DNA from: Zygnema cylindricum
Lineage: Eukaryota; Streptophyta; Zygnematophyceae; Zygnematales; Zygnemataceae
Assembly (NCBI GenBank): GCA_037447655.1
Contig: JBBHKE010001531.1
Location: 1-30,438, forward strand
Reading direction: 5' to 3'
DNA length: 30,438 nt
The position numbers were made by a program, and so were the translations under genes. The notes below the pieces were generated by a model. It ran no database searches, was not told the origin of the DNA, and saw only the letters and a program-made list of their open reading frames with translations. Shown one piece after another: positions 2,536 through 29,440 of this stretch (positions are counted from its first letter, which is position 1; every line of letters begins with the position of its first letter).

Positions 2536-3039
2536 TACACCGCGAATCGTAATTAGAGTAATGAATAAATTAGAGTACAAAAACTAAAAAAAACAATTAG
2601 AGTAATTAACGCTAATTTATGTGATAGAGCTTTTTCAAATATGAAGTTTACTCTAATTTATTTAATAACTCTAATTTGGCACGCTAATATCCTCTATTGT
2701 AAATAAGGTATTGGTACAAAATTTGGCAAACCGTACAGTTTATTGTCACTATGACGTTTGCATTACGCGGTTTGTTAAAACGCAGTTACATGATAACGGC
2801 CTGTATTAAATCATCATTTGTACTTTTTTACTTAATAAAGTACAATTTTGCACGGTCAGACACAGCTCTTATGTCACACTATTTAAAACGGCACTATGTT
2901 GGAGTTTTTAACGCTCATTCAAAAAGTACTTTAAACAATGTAAAGAATAATTTATAATAATGTTATATTTCAGGTGATGGAGTCAAAATTTGGGGTGACG
3001 GAATTAGCGTACATAACTCTAATAACGATTCGCGGTGTA
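2536..3039 (+). mobile_element. TIR element, type A copy 1 (~504 bp)
   Basis: The 5' end is TACACCGCGAATCGTAATTA and the 3' end is its near-perfect inverse (CGATTCGCGGTGTA). The first 325 bp are identical to the copy at 4219, then the two diverge abruptly after position 2860. It is non-coding; the 68-residue frame inside has no recognisable similarity. Confidence 0.75.
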
Positions 3040-4218: not shown

Positions 4219-4723
4219 TACACCGCGAATCGTAATTAGAGTAATGAATAAATTAGAGTACAAAAACTAAAAAAAACAATTAGAGTAATTAACGCTAATT
4301 TATGTGATAGAGCTTTTTCAAATATGAAGTTTACTCTAATTTATTTAATAACTCTAATTTGGCACGCTAATATCCTCTATTGTAAATAAGGTATTGGTAC
4401 AAAATTTGGCAAACCGTACAGTTTATTGTCACTATGACGTTTGCATTACGCGGTTTGTTAAAACGCAGTTACATGATAACGGCCTGTATTAAATCATCAT
4501 TTGTACTTTTTTACTTAATAAAGTACAATTTTGCACGGTCAGAGGTCATCCGTACTCCACACTATTTAAAACGAACCTATATTAGAATAAAAAACGCTAA
4601 TTAAAATTTACCTTAAATAGAATAATGAAAAAATTATAATCATTTACTCTATTTCCTGTGATACAGTCGAAATTTCGAGCGACCGAATTAGAGTAATTTA
4701 CTTTAATTACGATTCGCGGTGTA
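4219..4723 (+). mobile_element. TIR element, type A copy 2
   Basis: It has the same ends as 2536-3039. After 4543 the sequence follows the 29840-30020 version (CCACACTATTTAAAACGAAC, AAATTTCGAGCG) and not copy 1, so copies 1 and 2 are mosaics of two subtypes. Confidence 0.75.
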
Positions 4724-6232: not shown

Positions 6233-8936
6233 ATGGCTTCTCTAACGCGTAGTGTGGTCGGGAATTACAGTGTGGTATCTCAAAGAAATCTGTCAGAATC
6301 TTTCATTGCCGCTGGATGTAAATGCAGGGTTTTGCCTCCCGGAGGCTTGCTGGAAAGCAGAGGAGGTGCGTATGTGAAAGCTCGCTCAACTTTACAAAAA
6401 AAATTACCTTCGAGTTTATTCGTTAATGGAAGCCGTAGTTGGAGTAAAGGTCATTGTCATCAATTGGTGGACGTTCTTAGGGCTACTTCTGAAGGCGAGA
6501 AGGTTAGTAGTTTATGGCCGATGCTATGCACTGTCCTATTTCATTGTCATTTTGTGATGCGCCTTGTTTTTTGCTTAGTTTTTAGCACTCTGCTTGTTTT
6601 TTCACACCACTTCAACAATTTTGTTTCTCTTTTTTCAGTCTCACGCATTGTGAACTGTGAGGTCATTGTTGTTAATCAGAGTTTCTAAGAGTTAACTTCC
6701 TGCTGTTTTGAGGAAAGTACATGGTTTCTTTTGGTTTTTTTTTTTTTTTTTTTTTTTCCCTTTTTCCCATACTAAGTAAGATACGAGTGTATTGGACCAG
6801 GCTGCACAGGTGGAACAAGTTACAGAGGAGGCCAAGAAAGTGTTGGAGGAAGCTGTGGAAGATGTCAAATCTACTGCTGCTGATACAGCCAATGGCGATC
6901 CGGATGGACCTGAAAAGGCTAAAGACTTGCTTCTGACTGCCGCACAGCAGCTGAAGGAGCAAGCAGGTGCACTTAGGAGTCAAGCCAGCATTGCAACTGA
7001 GCAGTTTGTGGAGTCCGCAGGAAAGCGAGCAGGCCTCACTGCCGAGCAACTGAAGGAAGAGACTGATAAAACTGCAGCACATGTAAGAGCAGAAGCAGAG
7101 AGAGCAGCAGAGGAACTGAGGATACAGAGTGAAAAGGCAGCAGCTCAACTTGCAGAAACCGCTCATGAGACAGCTGAAATAGCGAAAGAGGGCCTCGGGA
7201 TTATTGCTGAGAATTCGCCTGACTCGATCAAGGAGATTGCCCAAGTAGCTATCCATGCACATTCAAAGGAGGCTGCGAAGAAGGGAGCTGTCATTCACGA
7301 CTTCTGTCTTGGAATTCCCTATGGTACTGGATGTTTTTGTGTTAAACCTTTTTCGCAGTGAAGGCAATTCTATAGAGGATTTTCCTGGACACCATTGTGA
7401 CTTAATGCCTTAACTCACATATAATTTATGGGACCTTTTTTTTTGCAGGGGCTCTACTCGCTGTTGGAGGCCTCGTATGGTTCTTGCTTGCAGGAAGTTT
7501 GAATGCACTTAGATTCGGAACCATTTTGGGAGGCATAGTGCTTGCAGTTAGCGTACAGAGCCTAAGAGTATGGCAGCAAGGGAAGCCTACTACGTCCTAC
7601 ATTGTTGCCCAAGCAGGTAAAGTTCCTGTTGTTAACTAGCGAGTGTTATAGCTGGGGCTAACCTACATACATTTGGAGGCAAGCTACAGACGAATATGTT
7701 TTTGTCATAAAGCTCATCTCAATCGAACACCCAACTAAGTTTCCTCTTTAGTTCAACAAATGAGCGGCCTTGGACGATATTGCTTCTGTGTGCCTCAAGC
7801 TTGATTTCGTTTTTTTCTTGCAACACCAGTCTATGGCCTTAATAGAGAGTTGTAAAATAGCATGTTATGGAAACCTTTGCAAATGTGTGTCTTGATTTTT
7901 ATTTCTTACCTTCATTATTTTTTTTCTTGGCGGGGGGGGGGGGGGAGTGGCGGGTGGCGGGCAGTTATTGCTTTTGTTCTACTTCTCAAACAGGGTTCTA
8001 AATTTTTTCAGGTGAGTTGACAGGAATTATGTGTGGATAGTGAACTTTTGATTCGCAGTTTTTGTTCAGTGGACCCTCCATGTGTTGTGAGAAAATAGCC
8101 ACACAGTGAATGGCCTTTTGTTGTTCGTTTTCTCTGCTGTGAAAGTCTGTATACTTCACTAACCTACCGTGCGAATTTGAATTATGTTACTTGTCTTTCG
8201 TTGCTGACTGTCAAATGCTGTTTAATTTGATGTTACAGACTGGGGCTATATTTCCAACCGCAATTTCGGCTTTTGTGAGGTGAGCTCATTTTTTAAAATA
8301 TACTTGAGTCTTCCTTAACTGAAGCTTGCATTAGCCAGATTGTTGTGGAGGAAAACCAGAGGTTAGAACACGTCCATCTAGGATATGCGAGGGGAATTTT
8401 ATAAACTACTCTCTGGAATCATGTTATTTATCTGAAGTACTGCCAATGCAATGCAAAAGTTGGTTGCCCGTTTAAGTTTGAATGTTCTATACTGGTAGAG
8501 TTGTCCATTGATAGTGCACACTTGAACATGCTGATGGGTAGCTCACTTTTAAGTCATGAGTTTCTATGGCTAGCGAAAAAAACATGTTCTCAATTTTCTC
8601 ATCTATTGTGATTAATCATAGTAGTGGTACAAGGAAATGTGCAATTTGTACAGTTATCTGTATGGTTGCTTTCCCCACATGTAACTCATTGACTAGCCGC
8701 AATATTCTATGTCAATATTATGAGCGGATAATCTTAGACTTATAACTGGCCTATTGTAGGCAAACATAATCCTGATGCCACTTTCTTTGTGTCAAGTGTG
8801 TATTTTCATGTGAAGTGGCTGTCACTAACAGCTACTCCATGATGGGTTTGACAGTGGCATTATGGTTGCCTTCTACACGTACGTGGTATTAGCCGGTGGG
8901 CCTCCCAAGAAGAAAGAGCGTCTGGCGGAGAGCTGA
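6233..8936 (+). CDS. FAX3: FATTY ACID EXPORT 3-like chloroplast envelope protein (TMEM14 family)
   Basis: Proposed exons: 6233-6502, 6801-7323, 7449-7616, 8059-8081 (micro-exon), 8239-8279 and 8855-8936, giving 368 residues. Residues 1 to about 75 are a Ser/Arg-rich, acid-poor plastid transit peptide. About 91-240 is a charged Ala/Glu/Lys helical region like the apolipoprotein-like segment of FAX3. HDFCLGIPYG (256-265) opens the four-helix TMEM14 domain (LLAVGGLVWFLLAG, FGTILGGIVLAVSV, FPTAISAFVSGIMVAFYTYVV). The C-terminus is a short basic Lys/Arg tail. FAX proteins move free fatty acids across the plastid inner envelope for ER lipid synthesis; the activity of this copy is inferred. All junctions are GT-AG, with a CTAAG branch site and a T-tract before exon 2. 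Exon 2 could instead start at 6810. The micro-exon is the least certain part, but an insert of 2 mod 3 bases is needed to join exons 3 and 5 in frame. An AATAAA lies near 9013. Confidence 0.87.
7929..7964 (+). repeat. G-tract, possible G-quadruplex in intron 3
   Basis: A run of 14 G (7932-7945) is followed by GTGG, CGGG and GGCGGG. At least four G-runs lie within 36 nt on the sense strand, inside the intron between FAX3 exons 3 and 4. A structure is possible; no function is shown. Confidence 0.5.
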
Positions 8937-13557: not shown

Positions 13558-16500
13558 ATGGTGAGCAAAGACGTACTTGAAGATAGTCTAATTGTATCTT
13601 TTTTTTTGTGGCAATGTTTGAAAGCAAAGGTTTTTGTAATGCCTTGTGTTTTAAACAAATATATCTGTTTCTGCAGATCAGGTTCATTCTTCTCCAAAAC
13701 AGGCAGGGAAAGACCCGTCTTGCGAAATATTATGTTCCTTTGGAGGATTCAGAAAAGCATAAGCTTGAGTATGAGGTACTGTGGTAACTAAAGCTAATCA
13801 TCGCCTTTGAAATCTTTCTTTTTCTTGTACTCGAACCATGACCAAACCAATGAGCTAGGCCACTCTCTCGAATCAAGCATTTCCATTTTCATTGTAAAAT
13901 GTATCCTGGATGAAGCTCATCCATGTGGACTAAGGAATGCCGTTGTTTATCATTTATTATTTCATGGATTTTTCTCGGTATTTCGAGTTTTATGTCGATG
14001 GTCTTTTTATGTATTTCTATGTGTGAAGGGGTTTGCGTTTTGTAATGTCGATGGTGGACATTACAATAATGTGCATAAACCTAAAAATGCTGGAAATATC
14101 GTGAATTTGTTTATTTTTTTCCATATGGTTCAGGATACTGGTTATCATGTCTCAACACAAACGGGTTTTAATGGATGGTTAAATTTCTCATTTATTTTAT
14201 CTGATTACTTTGACCTTGTTTTTCACTTCAGTTTCTGAAGGTTGTGCAGTTATCATGATTATCTCTCTTGGCCTTTTTACATTTTGCCTTGTGTTATTTA
14301 AGGTTATCCTTATAATTATTTGCAATTTGAAGTTAGCCGGTTTGAAGGATGCAATAGTTGGACATTGACTTTTTACTCCAATACTTGCAAAATGTGAAAA
14401 ATTTGTGTTGTGGGCCTTAATTTCTGATTGGAATTCGTCATGCCCATCCCTGATTTACTTTATGCAGGTTCACCGCCTGGTAGTGAACCGGGATCCAAAA
14501 TTTACCAATTTTGTGGAGGTTCGCTCTCTTCTTAGGCTCTTGTTGGACTTTGACATTCTGATTACTCACAGTTTGCTGCCATAACCAGCCAATTTATTAG
14601 GTTTTTGTCTCATGTTGGTTCAACTTTATGCGGGCAAGGTCTACATGGTGATGGAGGCTTAATGAAAATCATGGATTTATGGCACCCTGTATTGTATGAC
14701 CATCGGTGAAGGGCTCAGGTCATTAAGCAGTTTAACTGCTGTTCCTGGGGAGGTATATGAATTTTGACCTGATTGTGCAAAACGTTTTGATTTGTTTTAC
14801 CGTACAGCATTGGTGTGTGTTCACCTCAATAAGAATTGTATTATTCCTGATTGTTTTGGGAATCCATTACAGTCAAGCTGGTAAGCCATCACTGGAAAAT
14901 TGTCCTGGACATTTCATCTCTCGAGAACCACAGAAAGCCATCACAAAACGATATTTGTACCAGCAGCCTGTTTCTACCATCATTTCCTAGTTACCTTAGT
15001 GACGTCATTTGGTACAAATTTGTGTGAATGTTTCTCAACAAACATGGACACACGGAAAATTGTTGTACATTTGATGTTGAGGGTGGAATATTGCACTAAT
15101 CAATTTCTGAGTAACCACCGAGTATATCAATATTTCCTTTATCTCCGGACCATTTTTGCTTTAGTAGCTTTGTCCAAAACATTTGAAAATCGACGCCGCC
15201 AAGGAAAATGCACATGTACCAACAGTTTTGTAGGGCGTGAGAAATTTCATGGTGGAATATGTTATAAACATCCACTTAAAAAAAAGGACCAGCAAATGCT
15301 GCTATTATGTTTGCCCTTGCTGATTCCTGTTGCCTTTCTGCAGTTCCGCACATACAAGGTGATCTATCGCCGCTATGCAGGCTTGTTCTTCTCTGTTTGT
15401 GTCGACCTCACAGACAACGAGTTGGCGTATTTAGAGAGCATACACCTGTTTGTGGAGATTCTTGATCACTTTTTCAGCAATGTTTGTGAGCTGGACCTGG
15501 TCTTCAATTTCCACAAGGTGCTCATTGCAGAAGTTTTCTCTCAAGATTGTTGTCTGATGTCTCTTGCTATTTCCAGCTTTTGTTGCAGCTTGGCATGCTG
15601 TTGATGTCTACCAATCCTGGAAAGTTATCTAATCTCACTCAAGGGATGCAGCTGTTCAACTGATGACTTTTTACCTTTAAATATGATTTATTCTGTGTTC
15701 AACAAAATGATTTTCTCACTCAACGACTGTCTTGACTTCTAGATTTGTTTGATCCGTGGTCTTTCTTTTTAAGGACTGGCATCACAACTTTTAACCTTTG
15801 TTGTTTAGCCACTCCTTACCCGTTCGTCATGCCTCCTTGGTCATTCATGGTGGTCTCACTGTTCTTAGTTCATGGTTTAGAGAGTGGCTATGGGTGGTTG
15901 CAGGTCTACCTGATACTGGATGAATTCGTCCTTGCTGGTGAGCTACAGGAAACCAGCAAACGTGTGAGTACTCTTACTGACAATAACTTCTTTGGAGGCT
16001 TATTTGCATTTTGTGCGTGTCAAGTGTGTGCATCTAGGTTCAAAGAAGTCTTCTGTTTCTGCGGGTTTAAGTCTTTACCGCAGGTAAATGGCACACTCTG
16101 GCACAGCAGTCTTAACAATCTTGGAAATTATTCTTTACCTTATGCATTTACCAATAAGAGCAGCACATGGACTAATGTATATCAAGGTCAATTTCTTAAT
16201 ATTTGGTAAGCCTGGACATCCTTTAATAGTGCTTATCAATTTATTTCCCGGATGTGGAAATTCGATACAGCTGCTCAAAAAAGAAAAGAAAAACCGTGTC
16301 AAAGGAACGCAGGACACACACCATAAGGGTTAAGATACAGTCGATGGACCAACTGTACCTTGCACTTACTGTACGTCAGTCTAAGTTTTTTAACTCCTGT
16401 ATCGCAGAGGAAACCTCGCTACATTACGAATACAGTGTTGTATTCTAATTTTTTTGAATGTTCAGTAGACATGCAACGCTGTTTTAGATAGAAACAATCT

Positions 16501-16979: not shown

Positions 16980-18414
16980 CAGAAAAAGTATTTTTAACGT
17001 TTTCCAATCAAGTTGTCCTTTTTACTTGCTTGTCCTCTATTTGTGAGTCTAGCTCGTTTGTGTTGAGCTATTATATTTCCTTAATTTTCTCACCAGTTTG
17101 ACCAGTGTGCCTAAGTCTTGTTAGAAATAGTTAATGGCCTCTAGTTCATTTGTTATCCATTTTTTATATTGTTGTCAGTAGGTGTACATAAGCGATGCTT
17201 CAGCTGCCTCTAGTATATTTCTCAAAATAGTCAAGAGCCTCCAGTTGAAGACCAGCAGGGTCTCAAACGCGTGTCTCACTCTATTCTCATAAATTCGCTA
17301 AAACGCATCAAAAGGTTTTGTGATTGTCTTTTTCCCTGGCCCAAAGGCATGTTGAAAATGTTTTGGCAAACTGTGCCATGACGTTGCTGGAAAAAGGTTG
17401 GTCCAAATGTTATGACAAATCTAGAGAATGTGGTGAATGTCAGAATGTGATTGGACAGCCAGATTTGCACTGCTTGGATAATGTACTATATGTTCCATTT
17501 TTAGAACAGATGGGGGTTTGATTTTCAGCCTGGCAGAAACACATGCAATATCATTGTGGGCTGTTCTGGTACCACAAGTTGGGTCAATTGTGTGTCAACA
17601 TCCAAAAATCTGTGCATTTAAGTGTTGCCTTCATTCAAGGAAACCGAGAATTGGAGAGCATTATTCTTCTGGCATTGCTGTTTTAATAATTACTATGATG
17701 AACGCAGACGAGTGTCCATTGATCGTAGGGCTGTTTATGGTAATAATGCCATTGTATGGAAAAAGCTGGAAAGGCCAAACGTAGCAATCAATGGGAGTGA
17801 ATTTAATGAAACTTGTTGCACCCTACCACCTGCGTCTAGCATAGCAATATAATGACAAAACCCAGGCATAGAGAAGATCCTCATGGGGTAATTACGGTAT
17901 CAAAGATTTACCCTCATTTTGAGGATAATTCATACAATTTGTACAGTTTTTTGGGTAAATTTACGCACAAATTGGCCTTTAACTTTAGGATTCATCCTCA
18001 ACTTGAGGGCAACTTTCTTCAATGTAATTACCCTGTCACATAGAAAAGAAAAAGGTATTTTTGCACCTTCCAACCGAGGTCTCATCTTTTTTTCTGTTTT
18101 TAGGGTATGGAGTAATGTTTAGTGCTAGTATGATTCTGTATTTGTTTTTGTAGCTTTCAGCTTCAGATTTTTAGTTTTGCTTAGTTATTGTTATGCTTAA
18201 AGTATGTAGGGATTTTCTTCAAATCCCTTAAATGTCCGTCAACAATTTTTCATTTCAATCATGCTTTGTACCTAGATGGTTTTGCCATCGCGTTTTTTGG
18301 AAATAAAATCTTCTTCCTTCTCCTTACAACCAAAAAGCGACATAAAGCACGAGCATACCTAGCAGATTTTTGCAGGTTGACTTTAATCCTTCTTGCAATT
18401 CGAACATTAGCAAT
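16980..18414. other. Intergenic: AP2S1 3' UTR, a MITE, SDR gene 5' region
   Basis: No gene is supported between the AP2S1 stop and the SDR ATG. Frames of 60-88 codons overlap one another and lack similarity. The only structured item is the inverted-repeat element at 17886-18033. The SDR promoter and 5' UTR should lie in the last few hundred bases, but no clear motif decides the transcription start. Confidence 0.45.
17886..18033. mobile_element. Small inverted-repeat element (MITE-like, 148 bp)
   Basis: It begins GGGTAATTAC and ends GTAATTACCC. Inside these ends, CCCTCATTTTGAGGATAA pairs with the complement of ATCCTCAACTTGAGGG, so about 45 nt at each side are imperfectly inverted. A clear target duplication was not seen and no second copy is in the window. 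A decayed MITE is the simplest reading. Confidence 0.5.
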
Positions 18415-21400
18415 ATGTTTCTCTCTTGCTCAACTTCGATTGCCCTGCAGGATACACAATTCTCAAGATTTGCATCGCGTTTTCATTCTAGTCTGTACAC
18501 TGCAAATGATGAAAGTTCAGTCGGTTCAGTTAGTTCTCGTTTTGCAAAACCTGCTGTTCCTACAAATAAAACAAACACACTATATTCCAGGGCATATAAA
18601 GCCTCGGGTCCAACTTTTCAGGAAAATCCAAAGCTTTTCTGCTTTGGACTTGGATATACAGGAGAGGCAATTGCTAAAACGCTGAAAAATACGGGATGGT
18701 GTGATCCCTCTCTCTCCCTCTCTCCTTCTTTCTTCCTCTCTCTTCCTCTCTCTTCCCGTCTTTTCTGTCAGAACGTTGTATATAATTATCTCTTTTATTA
18801 TTTCTTAGTTTTTTTTCAGAATAACTTTTCTGCAACTCTGGAGGAACCCTAATAAAGCTTAGAGAATTGGAAAAGACTTATTTCTACCCTCCTGTAAGAT
18901 CCATAGCCGTCCAAAATCGCTATTCAAAGACCGAAAGAAAAGAGAAGATAGCTTTCCACGAACTTAAAAGTTGAAACGATTTTGACAAGCAAATTGAGTT
19001 TTGTGATATGCAGGAACGTGGCAGGAACTTGCCGTTCGAATACAAAACGTCAGTTTCTTTTGAATAGTGATATCGATGCCCATATTTTTGATCCAGAACT
19101 TACCGGCAATGGACTCATGTACAGTAATACTAATTCCTCGCCGTTTTCAGTTTTCTCAAAGGATAATCTCTATTAAATTATTTTTTTCTTAATTGATTTG
19201 CTATCTTGAAATCATAATATCTTATTGCAAATCCATGGTGTGAAGGCAAAACATTAGTCATTTATCATTTTTTTTTCCATGGTCTTTAATTGTTCGTCAA
19301 TGTCTTTCCAGATATTGTGTCTTTTTTAAACTTAATGCAGTTACATTTTCCCATCGTAATGAAGGGAAGAAGAAGAAATTTGTGTTAATCATAGTTCAAA
19401 CTTACACCTAATTGCCTCGCTCAATGTAAGTCAATAGTAAATTCTAGGTCATTGCTAAAGAAAATTTTTTCAAATTAGTTCGTTAACAAGTTATAAAATT
19501 GGGTGTTTTAGTTTTGCTTGATTTGTGATGCAAATTTTGAAGACGAACATGGCATCCCCATTTTCTGCATTTTTGGAGAATTTCCCCAAAACTCCACTTT
19601 GTAACCATGTGCCCCAACATCAAATCCTTCCAATAAGGCAACAACTTCTTGAAAGTTTTCGCCCTAATTTACCACCAAAAAATTATGTTTGGGAAGATTT
19701 ATCTTCGAGTGAACTGATCATCATTACTTGACTAAATCATGTTGCATTTTGGTTAGGCATGAGGCAATACTTGCTTTGCAAAGCTCCACACATCTTCTGT
19801 CAACAATTCCCCCTTCAGTTATTCAAAGCTATGATCCGGTATTCTTCTTTGCCTTCCGTTTTTTGAAACGATTGTCAAGCAAGTTTGTTGTGGATATGGG
19901 ATAACCATTCTAGTTTCACAAAGTGAATGGTGAGTAAGAAGGTCCAGGTTAGTCCGGTGCCCATTCTTAGTTGGGTTTTTTTTTTTTTTTGTGGAAAAGG
20001 AGGGCACCGTTAATATATTGATGGGGGTGCCAGAAAGTCGCGGGCTGGAAACAAAATTAATTAATTAATTCTTTTAGGGCCTCTAAAGTCAAGTTCACCT
20101 GCATTGTATCGTCAAACTTATCCCAGCAAATCAGTGAGCTAAAGGATGTTTATATGTTTGGAATTTTGAATTAGTACAGCAGTTTTTTAAACAGTCATGG
20201 AACTTGGTTCAAATGGGTAAATAGTGGAGTATTCTTTCTGTACATTTCGGAACGCAGCCTCAATTGTCCTCATGTGTAAATTTCAATTATTAGATAAAAG
20301 TATAACAGGTAGGCCGAATCGCCTAATATTAAGATATATATCTTTTGTTACCCCTTTTTGTAAGCTTTCAAATTATTGCAATTGAGCTTTGTTTTCTTCT
20401 GGTCTGTGTTCAAAAATGACACAGGCAGCTTTGTGTAATACATTTGGATTTGGAAGATAAAGCTGATTGAAGAAACTAATTGAAAGACAAAAAAAACGTA
20501 GTAGACGACTCTTTTCTGGTAAAAATGTTGCTAAAAGCATATTTTTTAAAGAGGTACGCACTTATAAAGTTTTAGAATCGCAGTTTTTTTTTCTGTAGGT
20601 GCTCGAATGGCATTTCAGTGACATTATATCGGCCAAAGAATCTGGACTCTCTTGGATAGGTTATCTTTCCACAACCTGTAAGTCTCAACTTTTCTAATGT
20701 CTCAACTTTTTTAATGTCTCTCATCCTGTTTTGACAACAATTGGATGAATGGATCGAAATTCATTCAGTTTTTTGCTTCTTTCTTTGAAATGTTTGCGAT
20801 TACTTTTCCTTTTTTGCGTATGGGAAACAACTTGTGAAGCTAAGATCCTCTGTCAAAAAAAAATGTGTGTTTTTTACTTTCAAAAGAAGTTGATGATGGG
20901 AATGCAATGGCAATCGGGAGTCAAAAATAAGTAGCACTAGAAAGTTTGTGAGCAAGGAGTACACCGCCTACCTCTATTAGTGTGGGTTGTGTTGGAGAGT
21001 TTCCAACTGTTTTGCTGTTGGCATTCCACACTAATTTTGGTACGACTTTCACAGATTAGATGCCTTAGACTCGGACTCATGTTTTGAACCAGACCGTTTT
21101 TTTTTGGTTCCCCTTTAATAACCATTCAATAGATTTAATTCATAATCAGTATGAATCACACTGACGGTGGTAAATATTGTAGTATTCAGGATCGGAATGG
21201 AAAGGAATCATGTATATAATTTAATGTAATATGATCTATAATTTAATATGGGTTTAGTTTTTTAAATTTTTTGAGTTAATGTGTACGTATTGATAATTTC
21301 TGTGAAGGAGGTTTTGTTGTTTGGTTGGAAATAACAGCTGTCTATGGGGATTGGAATGGAGAATGGGTGAACGAAAGGTAAGAGCTAAAATCAATTAATT

Positions 21401-24087
21401 TAATTGGTGGATTACTCTTCCTCCTCCTCCCTCCCTCCCTCTTTCTGTCTCCCTCTTTCTTCTTCTCCCGCCCTCTCTCTCTCGTCATCTCCTCTTCTGG
21501 CTCTTTAACTGTCGACTTCTAAAACACTCCTGAAGTCATTCTTGCCATCTTTTTTTTGTTATATTTAGATAAATCTGAACGTAAAATCTTGTTCTCGTTA
21601 GTTGATTTGAAAAACCTTTCTGTTTCACACTCAATAATTTTTGACCTAATGTTTTGTTTTTTTGTTGCAGCTGTTCTGTACGGCCAATGGATCCCAAAGC
21701 CAAAAAAAGAGTTATTGCAGAAGAAGGATGGTTAGAGTTAGGAAAAGATTCAAGAATTCCTACTCATGTTTTTCGTTTGGGGGGAATTTATGGACCTGGT
21801 CGAAGGTATTTACATTTGAACCTTCCCGTTTGTTAGGATTTCTTACGAATTTTGAGGGCTTTTTAGGGATTTTTATGGTTTTAGAGTGAAACTTGTTGAT
21901 GGCTAATAACTTGTCTTGAGGATGATGAAGGCTTAAGTTTTTTTCCAAGATTTTTGCCTGGTTTTTTTCTTGACAAATTGGAGTGTTTTGCTTATTTTAC
22001 GGCCAAAAGAGGTATAGTATTTTGATAAAGAGAGAGGAGAGCTAAAGAGAGGGGAGAAGTGGTATAGAGGGGAGAGATTATAAGAGCGGCGAGACAGAGA
22101 AGTGTTAAATGGAGCAAGATAGAGTTTTTACTTTAAGAATAGACAAAATTCTGGATTGGCCTATGGCATCTGTGAAGGTTAACCTCATTTTGAGATGGAC
22201 TATTGGTGTTATGTTGTCATTTGAATTAATGCATTTATCAACTAATGCTAATTGGTAGTGTTGTGTATCGGTAGAAAACTTATCGCGATAACACCGATAC
22301 CGATAGTTATCGGTTATCGAACGGTCAGAGGTTCCGATATATCGGTCTGGGACCAACAAATTCCATATCGGCGATAACTTAAAAAATATATAGTATGCAT
22401 ACAATAGTACTTTATAACATACTGTATTATTTTATTGATTTTATATAGCGTGGCATGCCACGTATGAAAAAATGTTCCGTTACAGTTTAACTGGTATTTA
22501 TTACGGTAAACGCTGCACATAAACGTTGGCCGGTTAACTGGAAAAAAATTTTACGGCGACGTACGGAAATTTACTAAAAAACTGGTAAACATGGAACTGG
22601 AAAAGGACGGCGGACACAAAAGTACAACGGACGCAAAATAACATTCTGCGCGCCGCCGGAATCGAACGGACGACTTGGAATGAGAAAACACGAACGGACG
22701 GGCCAGCGTGAGCGCCGGCATCCCGGAATGGCTCTTTTGGCAGCTTTTGCCAAAAAAGCCGACAGATTGACACGTGGCAGGTCCCCAGTGGATCTCAAGG
22801 AATTAAGGGACAAAGCCATGGCGTCGGATGTGAAAGGTACATCGTTTTTACTGGATCCGTATCAAAATCGTACAGATTTCATGGCGGCTACGGTACTTTC
22901 TATGCTTGTACACGTCCGGAGAATATGATGTACAGTTGAGGGTACAGACCGTACATTAATCTGTACGGTCCATACAATTATCGCCGATAATTATCGTTAT
23001 CGGCATTATCGCCGATAAGTACAAGATAGAGATTTTACTTAAAGAATAGACAAAATTCTGGATTGGCCTATGGCTTCTGTGAAGGTTAACCTCATTTTGA
23101 TATGGATTAAATGTTTGGTCGTATTGGTGTTATGTTGTCATTTGAATTAATGCATTCATCAACTAATTCTAATTGGGCTCCTACATTTAAACAATCATGT
23201 CTGTGTTTGTCCATCATAAGCCGTTTTTAAATTGCATCAATCGCCTAAAACGTTTTATCTCCATCGCAGAAGTCTATTTTCTATCATTGATTAATGTCGC
23301 CGATATAAATGATTTTCATACGCCTCATTCTTCATAACAAATGATTCTTTTATGATTATTCTTCTCACTTAGGATGCTTTTTGGGAATAGTTAAAGGATT
23401 TATAGATCGTTGGTCCCATGTGTCACAAATGCAGTGCTCTTGATACTCTGAGAAGAAATGAAAATCCGTCTGCGAATCAGAAGCGTCGAGAAAGTCAACT
23501 GTACACAGCTAGGTGCCACGTGGCAGATGTGTGCCAGGTCATACAGGCAAGCATGGCCCAACCTCGCAACGGGTAAGTGAAGTTAGCAGTCCCTTAAAAT
23601 TTTCTTCTACTTTTTTTTTTCGCTGTTAACCAAAATTAATCTTCTTCTTTTCACGTGTTTCCCCCCCTCTTCGTCTCCTTTCCTTTCCTTGTTTCTTTCT
23701 TTTCCAATACAGTGCAGAACGCTGTAGAACTGTTTTGGCATTTTCAATAAGTTAGTCTGTTTATTTATGTTTTTTTTTTTTACATTCTAATAGGTTCTTT
23801 AAATGATGGTTTCCTTTTTGTCTGGTGGTTCATCTATCAGAGGCATCTATAATGTTGTCGACGATTGTCCTGCGTCACGAAGAGAAGTCATGGCATTCGC
23901 ACGAAGTATTTTGGGACTCCCGTCGGTACCTCCAAATAAAAATTTAACAGGAGAAACAGAAACTTGGAGAGGAAAAGGAGAGAAGCGTGTCGAGAATAGT
24001 CGCATTAAAGAGGAGTTGGGAGCAAATTTGATATTTCCAGACTATATAGTAGGTCTGTTATCTATAGTGGAACAGGAGGAGCAGTAG
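18415..24087 (+). CDS. YeeZ-type atypical SDR, NAD(P)-binding Rossmann-fold protein, probably plastid
   Basis: Exons: 18415-18698, 19014-19118, 19757-19838, 20599-20677, 21338-21377, 21671-21805, 23435-23572 and 23841-24087. Phases agree throughout and give 369 residues. Residues 1 to about 70 are Ser/Thr/Arg-rich, like an organelle presequence. The Rossmann motif GLGYTG is at 78-83, GTCR (99-102) may bind the NADP phosphate, and LLSTIPPS and YLSTTSVYGDWNG (around 180-191) form the central sheet and active-site Tyr region. RLGGIYGPGR is at 232-241, and YTARCHVADV (265-274) and YNVVDD (291-296) are hallmarks of the YeeZ/SDR_a5 group. Substrate and reaction are unknown even for well-studied relatives. 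Intron 6 (21806-23434) carries a transposon insertion. Introns 1 and 5 have long CT-rich tracts. The gene converges on the minus-strand gene at 25359. Confidence 0.9.
22115..22255. repeat. Direct repeat, left copy, flanking an intron insertion
   Basis: This 141-bp segment from CAAGATAGAG to CTAATTGG recurs at 23022-23176 with a few substitutions and one ~14-base insertion or deletion. The two copies bracket the hAT-like element in intron 6 of the SDR gene. Confidence 0.8.
22256..23021 (+). mobile_element. hAT-like insertion in SDR intron 6, with GC-rich interior
   Basis: It starts TAGTGTTGTGTATCGGTA, the same terminus as at 154. The first ~60 bp and last ~50 bp are TATCGG/CCGATA-rich and imperfectly inverted. 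The interior (22600-22930) is distinctly GC-richer, with an 82-codon plus-strand frame (22680-22928) and overlapping minus-strand frames. None is recognised; this could be captured host sequence. The right end lacks the expected CACTA terminus and runs straight into a second copy of the left flank, so the end is damaged. Confidence 0.65.
23022..23176. repeat. Direct repeat, right copy
   Basis: This is the 155-bp counterpart of 22115-22255. The extra bases (around 23107-23120) are absent from the left copy. The sequence to its right is ordinary intron. Confidence 0.8.
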
Positions 24088-25358: not shown

Positions 25359-28139
25359 TTAAGCGGCAACTTTTCCATTAGAGACAGACATTGGTACAAA
25401 TGTCAAAGAGTTTCCCATAGAAAAATCGAACGGATTGTTAGGAGATGTTAACGGACTCAAAGATTCTGTTGAGCTCCGTACATCACAAGATACTTCCATT
25501 ATGGAGTTTTTGTCCATGCCTGGTTCTGTTAAGAGTCTCTTAAGAAGACCATCAACCTCATTTTTTACATTTTTCTTATGAGAAGATTTTTCCTCAGTTC
25601 TTGTCAATATTGTCTTTAGGACCAGCTCTTGCGATGGAGGTTCTGCGGTTTTCAACGGAGACTTCGATTGACCGTTCGAGTTCAGTTTCTGTGTGTTCTG
25701 TTCAGGTTTCAGTCTAGAAAAGAGATTCTGGGCCGGTTTCCTTGGTGGCAACAAGGGTGGTCCCGACTGGAGCTCCTTCCTCCGTGAAACTGGCGGTGCC
25801 ACATAGAACTCCTTCCTCCGTGAAACCATCTGAGCTTCCTTAGCCATTGGTATTAGAGGCCGTACACTTCCTCTCTCCGATACGCCATTCTTATTGGGGG
25901 ATAACACGATGGGCCCATTTTTTTTGGCCTCAATGTCAACCTTGGGTCCACTTTCTTCCGGCGAATTCACGACTTTGTTAGTTTCCACATTGGTTTTATC
26001 CTCGCAATCCACACCAACTCTTTGTTTGGCTCCTTCGATTTCAGAACTCCGAGGACTGACTTCACGAGTAATAGCTTCAGGAAGAGGAAGACTCCTTCCT
26101 CTCGGACTGAACGTGACAACTTCGACGACATCGTTGAATGACACCTGTCGGCTTCCCTTCGATCCTATGGAAGGCATTGACCTAGAACCACTGAATTCTT
26201 TGCCTTGAACTTCAACTGTAGGCAAAGATGAAGTCCTTCTTAATCCAGTTACTTTAGGACCAGTAGGACTTCCATTCCTCTGAACAAAGTCATGAGTCTC
26301 CAGTTCTTTCAATCCACCAAAAAAAGCCGGTGACCGATATCCCAATTCTTTTCCAATTCCGCCAAGAAGAAAGTTTGTTGCGATGGAACCCAAATCCACC
26401 ACTTCTGCGACAGGAATATCTTCGTCAGTTTCCAGATTTCCCATTGGCTCCACTGCGAATAAAATGCCGTTTCCCTCTTGATTTTGATTGTTTTTTTTTT
26501 CCTCCAAATTTTCAAAACTCTCTATCATCTCCAAGTGTTTGCTTCTTCCATCTCCATCCGAAATTATCGTATTTTCTTCGCCTGCCGAAGACCGAATTGT
26601 CTCCGACCTTCGCAACATATTTTCTAAATCATCCGCCTTCTTGATTTCGGACTCCGTCTCAATATTAGATTTGCTCTCACCTTCTGTAGATTCACAGCTT
26701 CCAAATCTTTCAGATTGCTGACCGGGAAAAAAAACAGCTGCCCCCAACTTTACACCGAGACCACTCGTTTCGACTTTTGGCATTTCTATTTTTTTATTCG
26801 CAGAACTTCGTTCCGGAAAAACCGCATTCACACCCTTTTTCAAAAATTGGAATCTTTCACTCATGGAGTTTCTTCTGGGTCGTCTCGGTATCACAACATC
26901 AGTTTTTACTATCTCTGGACTGTCTTTAGAAGAATCCATGGCAGCCCTTAACTCCACTTCTGGGACAGATTGTGCCCGGGAGATTCTTCCCACCATTCTA
27001 ATTTCCGTACCTCCCACATTTCCTCCCTTCATACCCCAATTTCCGGCCCCATTATCCTTCACATAACTCCATTTCGACGCAGTTTCCGCGGCCGGAAGGC
27101 ATAAATTCAAATTAATGACAGAAATTGGCATAGAATTCATCTTTAAATACGCCTTTCGCAACATTCTTTGCGCTTTTTCTCTCAATTCCACTTCGGTTTC
27201 ATTTTCTGCATCTCCTTCCCTCCCTCTCTCTGCTATCCCTGCTCCTCCCTGCACCCCTCCTGCTCCACTGACTCTGTCTCTGTGCTGCTCCTGTAAACTA
27301 ATTTTGCTAAAAATCGAATCAGACACGGAATCCCCACTACCCCTCCCTCCCTCTCCCTCCTCTATCTCTGTCTTCCAAAAATCACTAAACGACAAAACAG
27401 GACCCTCACCTTCCCTCTCCCTCCCCTTCCCCCACCTCCTCCTCCACGAAATGTGGGTCTGAGCCAAAACCTCCAAAACTATTTTCCCCTCCACTACCCT
27501 CTCGTTAAACCCAAAAATCCGTACACCGCATTTCCCATCCGTACTCTCCTCTCTCGAAACCTCGCACGTGCGAATCCATTCCCTGACACTCTCCAGAGTC
27601 CCGGGCATCTTTTTGTCCACATCCTCCGCGGTCCTCACGCCTCGCTCCCTCGCTTCCTCGGCGTCCATAGCCACAACTTTCCACGCTAATTTTGGTCCGT
27701 TCTCGACCACGGCGAAGGCGCCAAGTGGCACGATGTCGTACGCTTCTCCTCTCTCCGCCGTCCTTTTTTGTCCTATCTCTAATACTTCCAAAGGTTGGCC
27801 GTTGTACGGAATTCCCCCAGAAACCAGATTATCCTCCGTGGGATGGCCCCAGGTTTGAGGGAGAATCCCGAGATTCCAGGGGCACTTTGTACGGAACTGC
27901 ATGGAACTTCCGTTCCGTTCCCGGATACGGAGTGGGTACAAAGGCTCGGTTTCGGAGACGGTGTAAGGCGATTGCGTGTTTTTGGGGGACGTACAAACTG
28001 TACGGACGATGTCACTTGTGGGTCCGTACAACGGAACGTCTGCCCATGGAGACAGTTCCGTACCGTTTTGTCTGTTGCGGAGAAGGACGCGGTGCGAGAG
28101 ACTCCCGGGAGACCCGAATTCGACCGTCTCGAAATCCAT
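25359..28139 (-). CDS. Pyrophosphatase-like pseudoenzyme fused to a long low-complexity tail
   Basis: A single open frame of 926 codons; an in-frame upstream TGA supports the ATG at 28139. Residues ~5-237 align with eukaryotic soluble pyrophosphatase: PWADVPLY (31-38), NLGILPQTW (89-97), PLEVLEIG (116-123), AWKVVAMD (152-159), MPGTLESVREWIR (178-190) and QTHISWRRRW (227-236). Against yeast IPP1, active-site E48, K56, E58, R78, Y93, D115, D117, D120, D152, Y192 and K193 become T, P, T, Q, L, N, Q, E, A, C and E; only K154 remains. Catalysis is therefore unlikely. Residues ~238-926 are mostly predicted-disordered in character: acidic/Gly-rich 240-320, a basic helix-like stretch 318-335, RxxSxP sites, two VSRRKE copies (772-777, 784-789), a polyproline PPLLPPRKP (794-802), a charged helix 850-870 and a hydrophobic C-end. 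Function and location are unknown. A length of 926 against the usual ~215-300 rules out a plain pyrophosphatase. Confidence 0.9.
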   Translation of the reverse strand: MDFETVEFGSPGSLSHRVLLRNRQNGTELSPWADVPLYGPTSDIVRTVCTSPKNTQSPYTVSETEPLYPLRIRERNGSSMQFRTKCPWNLGILPQTWGHPTEDNLVSGGIPYNGQPLEVLEIGQKRTAERGEAYDIVPLGAFAVVENGPKLAWKVVAMDAEEARERGVRTAEDVDKKMPGTLESVREWIRTCEVSREESTDGKCGVRIFGFNERVVEGKIVLEVLAQTHISWRRRWGKGREREGEGPVLSFSDFWKTEIEEGEGGRGSGDSVSDSIFSKISLQEQHRDRVSGAGGVQGGAGIAERGREGDAENETEVELREKAQRMLRKAYLKMNSMPISVINLNLCLPAAETASKWSYVKDNGAGNWGMKGGNVGGTEIRMVGRISRAQSVPEVELRAAMDSSKDSPEIVKTDVVIPRRPRRNSMSERFQFLKKGVNAVFPERSSANKKIEMPKVETSGLGVKLGAAVFFPGQQSERFGSCESTEGESKSNIETESEIKKADDLENMLRRSETIRSSAGEENTIISDGDGRSKHLEMIESFENLEEKKNNQNQEGNGILFAVEPMGNLETDEDIPVAEVVDLGSIATNFLLGGIGKELGYRSPAFFGGLKELETHDFVQRNGSPTGPKVTGLRRTSSLPTVEVQGKEFSGSRSMPSIGSKGSRQVSFNDVVEVVTFSPRGRSLPLPEAITREVSPRSSEIEGAKQRVGVDCEDKTNVETNKVVNSPEESGPKVDIEAKKNGPIVLSPNKNGVSERGSVRPLIPMAKEAQMVSRRKEFYVAPPVSRRKELQSGPPLLPPRKPAQNLFSRLKPEQNTQKLNSNGQSKSPLKTAEPPSQELVLKTILTRTEEKSSHKKNVKNEVDGLLKRLLTEPGMDKNSIMEVSCDVRSSTESLSPLTSPNNPFDFSMGNSLTFVPMSVSNGKVAA

Positions 28140-28985: not shown

Positions 28986-29440
28986 CAGTTCAAAAGTAGG
29001 CGTTTCTATTGTAGGTCTTTTGTCGGCGCCTTCATCGTAAGTTGTGTTATGGGCTTTTCATGTAATCGTCTTAAGTCGCTACTTTGATCAGCGACCGTCC
29101 GATCGTCCAAATCTGACGATAGTCCTATTGTAATTTGTGTTATAGGCTTTTCATGTGATCTTCTTAGATCGCTATTTTGATCAGCGACCGTCCGATTGTC
29201 CGAATCTGACGGTTTAAATAAAAAGTCGCTCAAAACTCACAGAAAAATATTTTTTTGTCCGTTTGTTTTTTCAAATTTAGACATGACATTTAATTCTCTA
29301 TCGATCCATGTGCAACTCAACCCTGTTACTATTTCATTTCATTTTGCGGCCAATACAATATGGGTCTTAAGGGTATATTGTATTTTTTGCGTACAATAGG
29401 CATATTGTATGGGTGTACTTTCACCTACTTTTGAACTATG
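28986..29440 (+). mobile_element. Nested hAT-type MITE with perfect 8-bp target duplication
   Basis: Ends CAGTTCAAAAGTAGG and CCTACTTTTGAACTATG are flanked by AAAAAAAC at 28978-28985 and 29441-29448. It is homologous throughout to the element at 5186-5689 (AGCGACCGTCCGATCGTC, CAATACAATATGGGTCTTAA). It carries an internal tandem duplication and sits inside type A copy 3, which makes it the younger insertion. Confidence 0.8.
29041..29217 (+). repeat. Tandem duplication inside the nested MITE (~95-bp unit)
   Basis: The block from TGTGTTATGGGCTTTTCATG to AATCTGACG (29044-29118) recurs at 29138-29213 with a few substitutions. The related element at 5186-5689 has only one copy. Confidence 0.7.

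Follow-up and report, generated by a model that had tools for sequence, protein, structure and literature searches.

A tailed pyrophosphatase-like gene of Zygnema cylindricum with a lost active site, and the gene family to which it belongs

A pyrophosphatase domain with a long tail

In this work we have examined a gene on the reverse strand of a contig of the alga Zygnema cylindricum (JBBHKE010001531.1); the whole stretch analysed, 30,438 nucleotides, is called the window. The gene runs through 926 codons with no internal stop and encodes a domain of the soluble inorganic pyrophosphatases of family I, followed by a long tail. We conclude that its product is very probably a pseudoenzyme kept by selection. 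A sequence-only reading of the same DNA had already proposed a pyrophosphatase fold with an erased active site, fused to a tail of about 690 residues and repurposed rather than decaying. The tail in fact counts 686 residues after residue 240, and the backbone motifs of soluble pyrophosphatase are, as that reading had it, present in the translation in order and spacing.

Sequence and fold homology across the whole domain place it in family I. The Pfam model PF00719 matches residues 81-196 with 43 bits (cut-off 23.5), and phmmer aligns human PPA1 with residues 2-239 (E=4.9e-25) and also finds the yeast enzyme (E about 1e-21). Identity amounts to 68/222 aligned residues with the human and 67/228 with the yeast protein. 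An AlphaFold model of residues 1-246, whose input alignment consisted of 24 prokaryotic pyrophosphatases, reached a pLDDT (predicted local distance difference test) of 64 and a pTM (predicted template modelling score) of 0.67. In a Foldseek search of the PDB with this model, the matches listed, the best 50 of 352, were pyrophosphatases throughout, headed by human PPA1 (E=1.8e-14, TM-score 0.61). The fold which the sequence-only reading had proposed to check by such a model was recovered, but the match arises partly by construction, because pyrophosphatases made up the alignment, and we use it as supporting evidence only. As judged from the alignments, the sequence homology of the domain is independent of the model. 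AlphaFold run on a single sequence produced a model of pLDDT 38.8, which was set aside as unusable. The relatives used in the structure job came from searches that started from the aligned yeast, human and E. coli sequences and yielded one IMG/VR locus and 413 GTDB relatives (80 kept), of prokaryotic type as far as they were read. No relatives were found in IMG/VR and GTDB when the query was the window protein, alone or within an alignment, and there was no match to NCBIfam for the whole protein or to Rfam and tRNA models in the window.

The active site and the origin of the family

Enzymes of family I are recognized by the metal site D-x-D-P-x-D, which the window protein does not have; it had been described as erased to N-G-Q-P-L-E, and our alignment agrees, reading Y-N-G-Q-P-L-E. 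We scored 14 catalytic positions under their yeast numbers, which we assume to be correct. At D115, D117 and D120 the window protein has Y or N (depending on the alignment), Q and E, respectively; E48, K56, E58, R78, Y93, D147, D152, Y192 and K193 are all replaced, and K154 is the sole catalytic residue retained. The changes of D120 and D147, both to E, are mild. The residue at R78 is M or Q by alignment and never the catalytic one, and the same is true of D115. Y89 falls in an alignment gap, but this gap is common to the active-type enzymes of the same genome and is therefore no gene-specific loss, so the fair count is one retained position in 13. The earlier statement that eleven of twelve active-site positions had changed stands as to the near-total loss. 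The loss in the window gene is, by this comparison, selective: at positions where yeast and human enzymes are identical, 1/14 catalytic but 50/119 other residues are retained (Fisher p=0.017).

Is this gene alone in its genome? We searched the genome to which the window belongs (352.8 Mb in 2689 contigs) and obtained 33 match rows with PF00719 and 38 with the window domain, from which 31 regions of the former search and six further ones of the latter were taken. Together with the window, these contain at least 32 pseudo-pyrophosphatase loci; eight times two of them are close or overlap, the other 16 stand alone, and the family therefore has about 24 distinct genes. Four loci (L096, L115, L116 and L120) are of the eukaryotic active type: 13 of their 14 positions are intact, and the last one falls in the common gap. 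The only pseudo locus without a site mapping, L124, matches L092 at every one of 118 residues (100%); both contain runs of N. The loci L097, L108, L117, L122, L126, L127 and L128 are incomplete or have poor coverage in the alignment. Across the 31 mapped family loci, window included, zero to five catalytic positions are retained per locus. The sequence-only reading had named orthologues with an intact site as evidence against itself; no intact site occurs in these 31 loci, which are paralogues and a twin within one genome, some of them partial. Besides the family, L111 (C1407:102557-104538) scores higher with PF00719 (65 bits, in two pieces) than any other locus of the genome, and matches the human enzyme poorly. 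It is probably a pyrophosphatase of another type, perhaps an active one, its site being unmapped.

For 19 family genes we compared the columns that are invariant among active enzymes, and 49/242 catalytic cells are retained, as against 575/1037 others. E48, R78, D117, D152, Y192 and K193 are retained in none of the 18-19 genes scored (D117 in 0/19). We infer from these replacements that the family proteins would no longer hydrolyse pyrophosphate. Could the pocket have been rebuilt instead for another reaction, or for another phosphate ligand? New residues do prevail at D120 (E in 15/19) and D152 (S in 16/19), and K154 and E58 are retained in 13/19 and 14/18 genes. However, the positions of D117, R78 and K193 vary widely between members, unlike those of a common catalytic site, and the window protein itself lacks E58 and has A at D152, so that we consider a new enzyme unlikely. 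A non-catalytic sensor of pyrophosphate or polyphosphate is more improbable again: the fold is kept, and K154 is found in the window protein as in those 13 genes, but nearly all residues that hold the cations and the phosphate are gone in the window protein and most are gone family-wide. The earlier view, that the fold has been repurposed and the gene is no pseudogene, is supported; of the two roles which it had left side by side, scaffold and ligand sensing, the scaffold would fit better, because most of the lysine, arginine and tyrosine residues that hold pyrophosphate have also disappeared.

A maximum-likelihood tree, calculated with the catalytic columns removed, included 32 rows: 26 pseudo loci, the four active-type loci of the genome, yeast and human. 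Six pseudo loci found later are absent from it. All 26 pseudo rows share one side of a branch (100/100). With the root placed on yeast and human, L096 separates first and the pseudo clade joins L115, L116 and L120 (98/91). Among the rows sampled the pseudo-pyrophosphatase loci have a single origin, and their clade lies within the active-type enzymes of the genome, which we take to be of the plant plastid (PPA6) type. The deep order within the clade is mostly unresolved, and the branch of L119 is long. Some members share a contig, L099, L108 and L104 on C2033 and L094 and L110 on C283, and their spacing of tens of kilobases or more suggests old local duplication.

The presence of these active-type paralogues (L096, L115/L116 and L120) raises another possibility, since regulating an active relative is a common role of pseudoenzymes: the family proteins could be inactive partners which control an active pyrophosphatase through mixed dimers. 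Yet W52, presumably a dimer-contact residue of the yeast enzyme, is N, G or E in the active-type paralogues themselves, and plant plastid pyrophosphatases have been reported as monomers. About 24 divergent genes would also be excessive beside three distinct active-type ones. We have set mixed dimers aside because the contact residue is missing from the active-type paralogues too, and hold them to be as improbable as the sensor.

Purifying selection on the domain and the tail

The window gene might still be a decaying pseudogene or an assembly artefact, a retrocopy without function that has its long open frame by chance. It is intronless, as a retrocopy would be, and damaged sequences do occur in the genome: L117, the twin of L095, is cut after 290 codons, and L114, a PF00719 match, has two stops. 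Against this stands the frame itself, which measures 942 codons from stop to stop, whereas the longest open run in 300 simulations under a dinucleotide model was 258 codons. When the domain was left to decay neutrally to 50% identity in simulations, about 6 stops appeared per 240 codons, and one run in 100 remained stop-free. A second line of evidence is the near-twin of the window gene, L105 on contig C877. Over 927 codon columns the two differ by 42 synonymous and 41 non-synonymous changes, and the ratio of non-synonymous to synonymous rates (dN/dS) is 0.28 for the full frame, 0.14 for the domain and 0.33 for the tail (Fisher p for dN<dS 1.5e-8, 8e-5 and 1.5e-5, respectively). Purifying selection acts on both the domain and the tail. 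The claim that the stop-free frame of 2.78 kb implies selection is borne out, and the ratio near 1 that would have spoken against it is not what we find: measured against a near-twin within one genome, it is 0.28 for the whole gene and 0.14 for the dead domain. The two coding sequences are 96.9% identical and are separated by one in-frame codon indel. In the near flanks, of about 2.1 kb and 0.8 kb, identity drops to 89.6% and 89.2%, and the alignments open 39 and 16 gaps, respectively; further upstream there are two short aligning pieces only. Because of the low dN/dS and the single in-frame indel, compared with 55 gap openings in these flanks, we regard the window gene as a selected pseudoenzyme and not a pseudogene, which we consider very improbable. 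It has neither a disrupted frame nor a neutral pattern of substitution, and the family combines a common origin, a lost site and dN/dS well under 1.

Other pairs gave dN/dS of 0.38 (L093/L094), 0.23 (L095/L117), 0.56 (L121/L122), 0.20 and 0.12 (L100/L101) and 0.39 and 0.46 (L106/L107); these values are rough, because frames read from stop to stop can take in an intron or a leader. With one difference between them, L112 and L113 yield no usable ratio. The pooled ratio of proportions over six pairs is 0.34. As for the damaged sequences, the break in L117 is followed by a frame on the opposite strand (about 2924-5090 of L117), which looks to us like a Ty1-copia reverse transcriptase, and one copy of the L095/L117 gene may have been broken by a retrotransposon. 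L114 (C2129:2923-3288), whose two stops are in frame, has no family-domain match at 1e-3 and is perhaps a relic or an unrelated exon.

Most members examined share one layout: an exon with the pseudo-domain, an intron at a common position soon 3' of the motif EWLRTC, and a second exon that begins with the last helix of the domain (e.g. FGLNERA..AHASWQLL) and continues into a long tail. Splice sites were judged by eye at 19 loci; the intron is of phase 1 where it could be read through (L099 and L108), and the sites are unclear in L109, L110 and L119. In the window gene the domain, last helix and tail all lie in one exon, and the intron therefore appears to have been lost there. Since the gene is a member of a large family of single origin, its tail belongs to the family layout; the tail of the sequence-only reading is real, but it is not a one-off fusion.

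The coordinates of the gene and its surroundings are given in Table 1. Among the neighbours, the chloroplast-protein-like gene resembles what we take to be FAX3, a plant plastid fatty-acid exporter, the clathrin adaptor subunit is presumably AP-2 sigma, and the scattered exons between them and our gene resemble a plastid epimerase-like gene dependent on nicotinamide adenine dinucleotide. The neighbours, taken with the plastid-type look of the active enzymes, point to a green alga or plant as the likely source. The repeat of about 500 bases is a dispersed element, with a further copy upstream of the twin gene (5871-6380 of L105).

Table 1. Features of the window
Feature	Position	Strand	Evidence or remark
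Whole coding frame, 926 codons and stop, intronless	25359..28139	-	ATG at 28139, stop codon 25359-25361; same frame in L105 (927 codons)
Pseudo-pyrophosphatase domain, residues 1-240	27420..28139	-	Pfam PF00719, human PPA1 match, Foldseek
Old D-x-D-P-x-D metal site, now Y-N-G-Q-P-L-E, residues 112-118	27786..27806	-	Alignments
Last domain helix KIVLEVLAQTHISWRRR, about residues 218-235	27435..27488	-	Separate second exon in most relatives examined
Ser/Glu-rich tail of 686 residues after residue 240, no known domain	25362..27419	-	Composition, dN/dS 0.33
RQVSFNDVVEVVTF, motif resembling the RVxF dock for protein phosphatase 1 (PP1), residues 664-677	26109..26150	-	Near-match in the L119 tail
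Chloroplast-protein-like gene	6233..7636	+	Tmemb_14 domain; weak apolipoprotein-like stretch below Pfam cut-off
Clathrin adaptor small chain exon	14885..15601, perhaps to 16206	+	PF01217, E 2e-24
Scattered exons	18346..24084	+	No Pfam match for the pieces tested
Tandem repeat of 93 bases, 1.9 copies	29037..29211		89% matches
Repeat of about 500 bases	2536..3039, 4219..4723		82-84% identical

Tail motifs, possible role and known systems

Judging from composition alone, the tails are probably disordered; that of the window protein has few aromatic residues and much serine and glutamate. Pfam yielded nothing for it at E values up to 10, and its one match in the PDB (E 1.7) is meaningless. The tails of L099 and L108 end in a common helix-like block, LHA[RK]FNSRLA.T.VLL.RLR (59% over 44 residues, E 2.5e-10), and are otherwise different. 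We counted short motifs in 18 tails (of about 24 genes) and compared the counts with 1000 shuffles. The pattern [RK].?V[ST][FW], which we take to resemble the PP1-docking motif RVxF, occurs in 6/18 tails, window included, against 0.8 in the shuffles, none of which reached this number; together with a following acidic residue it occurs in 5/18 tails against 0.1 expected. The L119 tail holds RRVSFKEQVEVLTF near its end and the L097 tail holds KRVSWSEFVEV. Basic-directed phosphosites, R[RK].S[LVMIF], number 13 against 2.8 expected, five of them in L118 alone; by tail the figure is 7/18 against 2.5 (P 0.005). The sequence RRHSLDE is present in four copies in the L118 tail and one in the L093 tail, and RSQT[IF]SEG in four copies in the L095 tail. 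Both look like repeated units of kinase-site type.

What might these proteins do? We propose that a gene for a family I soluble pyrophosphatase, presumably of the plant plastid type, was duplicated, and that the common ancestor of the family would have lost the metal and substrate residues, with D152 to S, D120 to E and Y192 to C as recurrent marks. Radiation into about 24 genes in this genome would have followed the loss of the site. The dead domain may serve as a folded platform for binding a protein, and the long tail as an arm which recruits partners under the control of phosphorylation. In a third of the tails examined, that of the window protein included, the arm would dock PP1, and the window protein may carry PP1 to a target held by its pseudo-pyrophosphatase domain. 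On balance we lean, without much assurance, towards the family proteins acting as scaffolds, with a fold that binds a partner and a tail regulated by phosphorylation. That PP1 in particular is the docked phosphatase we suggest only tentatively and would rather doubt. Slightly more doubtful still is the picture as a whole, that of an undescribed scaffold family of the green lineage with about 24 members, in which a dead plastid-type fold would select the target and a disordered tail would bring PP1 under the control of kinases.

Several observations weigh against this proposal. The dN/dS values come from near-twin copies in one assembly, which are haplotypes or recent duplicates, and therefore reflect short-term selection. 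In a blastp search the window tail matched no other family tail at E 0.01 (the L105 tail was out of frame in that set), so that a single function common to all tails is unproven. The motif patterns were picked post hoc, after the sequences had been read, and the canonical [RK].?V[ST][FW] is missing from 12/18 tails. A looser pattern for PP1 docking, which we take to be that of ELM, is weakly enriched (13/18 tails against 8.9, P 0.041; 20 occurrences against 13.8, P 0.079). Binding of 14-3-3 proteins had also been considered, as the window tail has four matches to their pattern against 0.46 expected; this reading was abandoned, since the pattern does not hold across the family (10 occurrences in the family against 5.5, P 0.053; 5/18 tails against 4.6, P 0.49).

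Few housekeeping enzymes are as conserved as soluble pyrophosphatase. A large branch of single origin with its own exon layout and long tails is a clean case of an enzyme fold that has been made non-catalytic and then multiplied. Most of the family genes exceed the PF00719 cut-off and would thus be annotated as inorganic pyrophosphatases; both pyrophosphate metabolism and the expansion of gene families in the lineage would then be misjudged. If the proposal is true, it would show how a housekeeping enzyme gave rise to a family of phosphatase-targeting proteins. In a search of open-licence papers, a pseudo form of soluble pyrophosphatase was not found among the matches listed. We take the Gene Ontology term 'pyrophosphatase activity' to be broad. 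For this reason nothing is drawn for the window family from its place among the terms enriched in Zygnematophyceae-specific orthogroups, as given in the available part of that study (PMC11096116).

How does the window protein compare with known systems? With the family I enzymes, such as yeast IPP1, human PPA1 and the plant plastid PPA6 type, it shares the fold and the order and spacing of the motifs over residues 1-240; in contrast to them it retains one of 13 catalytic positions and adds the tail. Its domain starts at the first ATG, so that no leader precedes it in this frame, although an upstream exon is possible. The folds of flavin adenine dinucleotide (FAD) pyrophosphatase and inorganic pyrophosphatase are unrelated, and the phosphatase relative PHLPP2 has a fold different from that of pyrophosphatase. 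We know of no PP1 regulator of the type of rice OsINH2 and OsINH3 or wheat TdRL1 that carries a pyrophosphatase fold. A plant FAD synthetase is fused to an inactivated FAD pyrophosphatase domain, according to the accessible text, and is thus, like the window protein, a plant protein with an inactivated domain named after a pyrophosphatase; there, however, the domain is joined to a working enzyme, whereas the window protein combines an inorganic pyrophosphatase fold with a tail that has no known domain (PMC9678776). PHLPP2 is described in the portion of the paper available as a pseudophosphatase which lost its activity long ago; like the window family it derives from a metal-dependent enzyme of phosphate chemistry and persists though inactive, but it is a single gene of animals (PMC12002173). 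Finally, OsINH2, OsINH3 and TdRL1 are presented, in the extracts available, as PP1 regulatory subunits with RVxF motifs; the window tail resembles them in placing a basic-x-V-S/T-F motif in a probably disordered region, a likeness of sequence that would make it a candidate for the same kind of docking (PMC9521630, PMC12109034).

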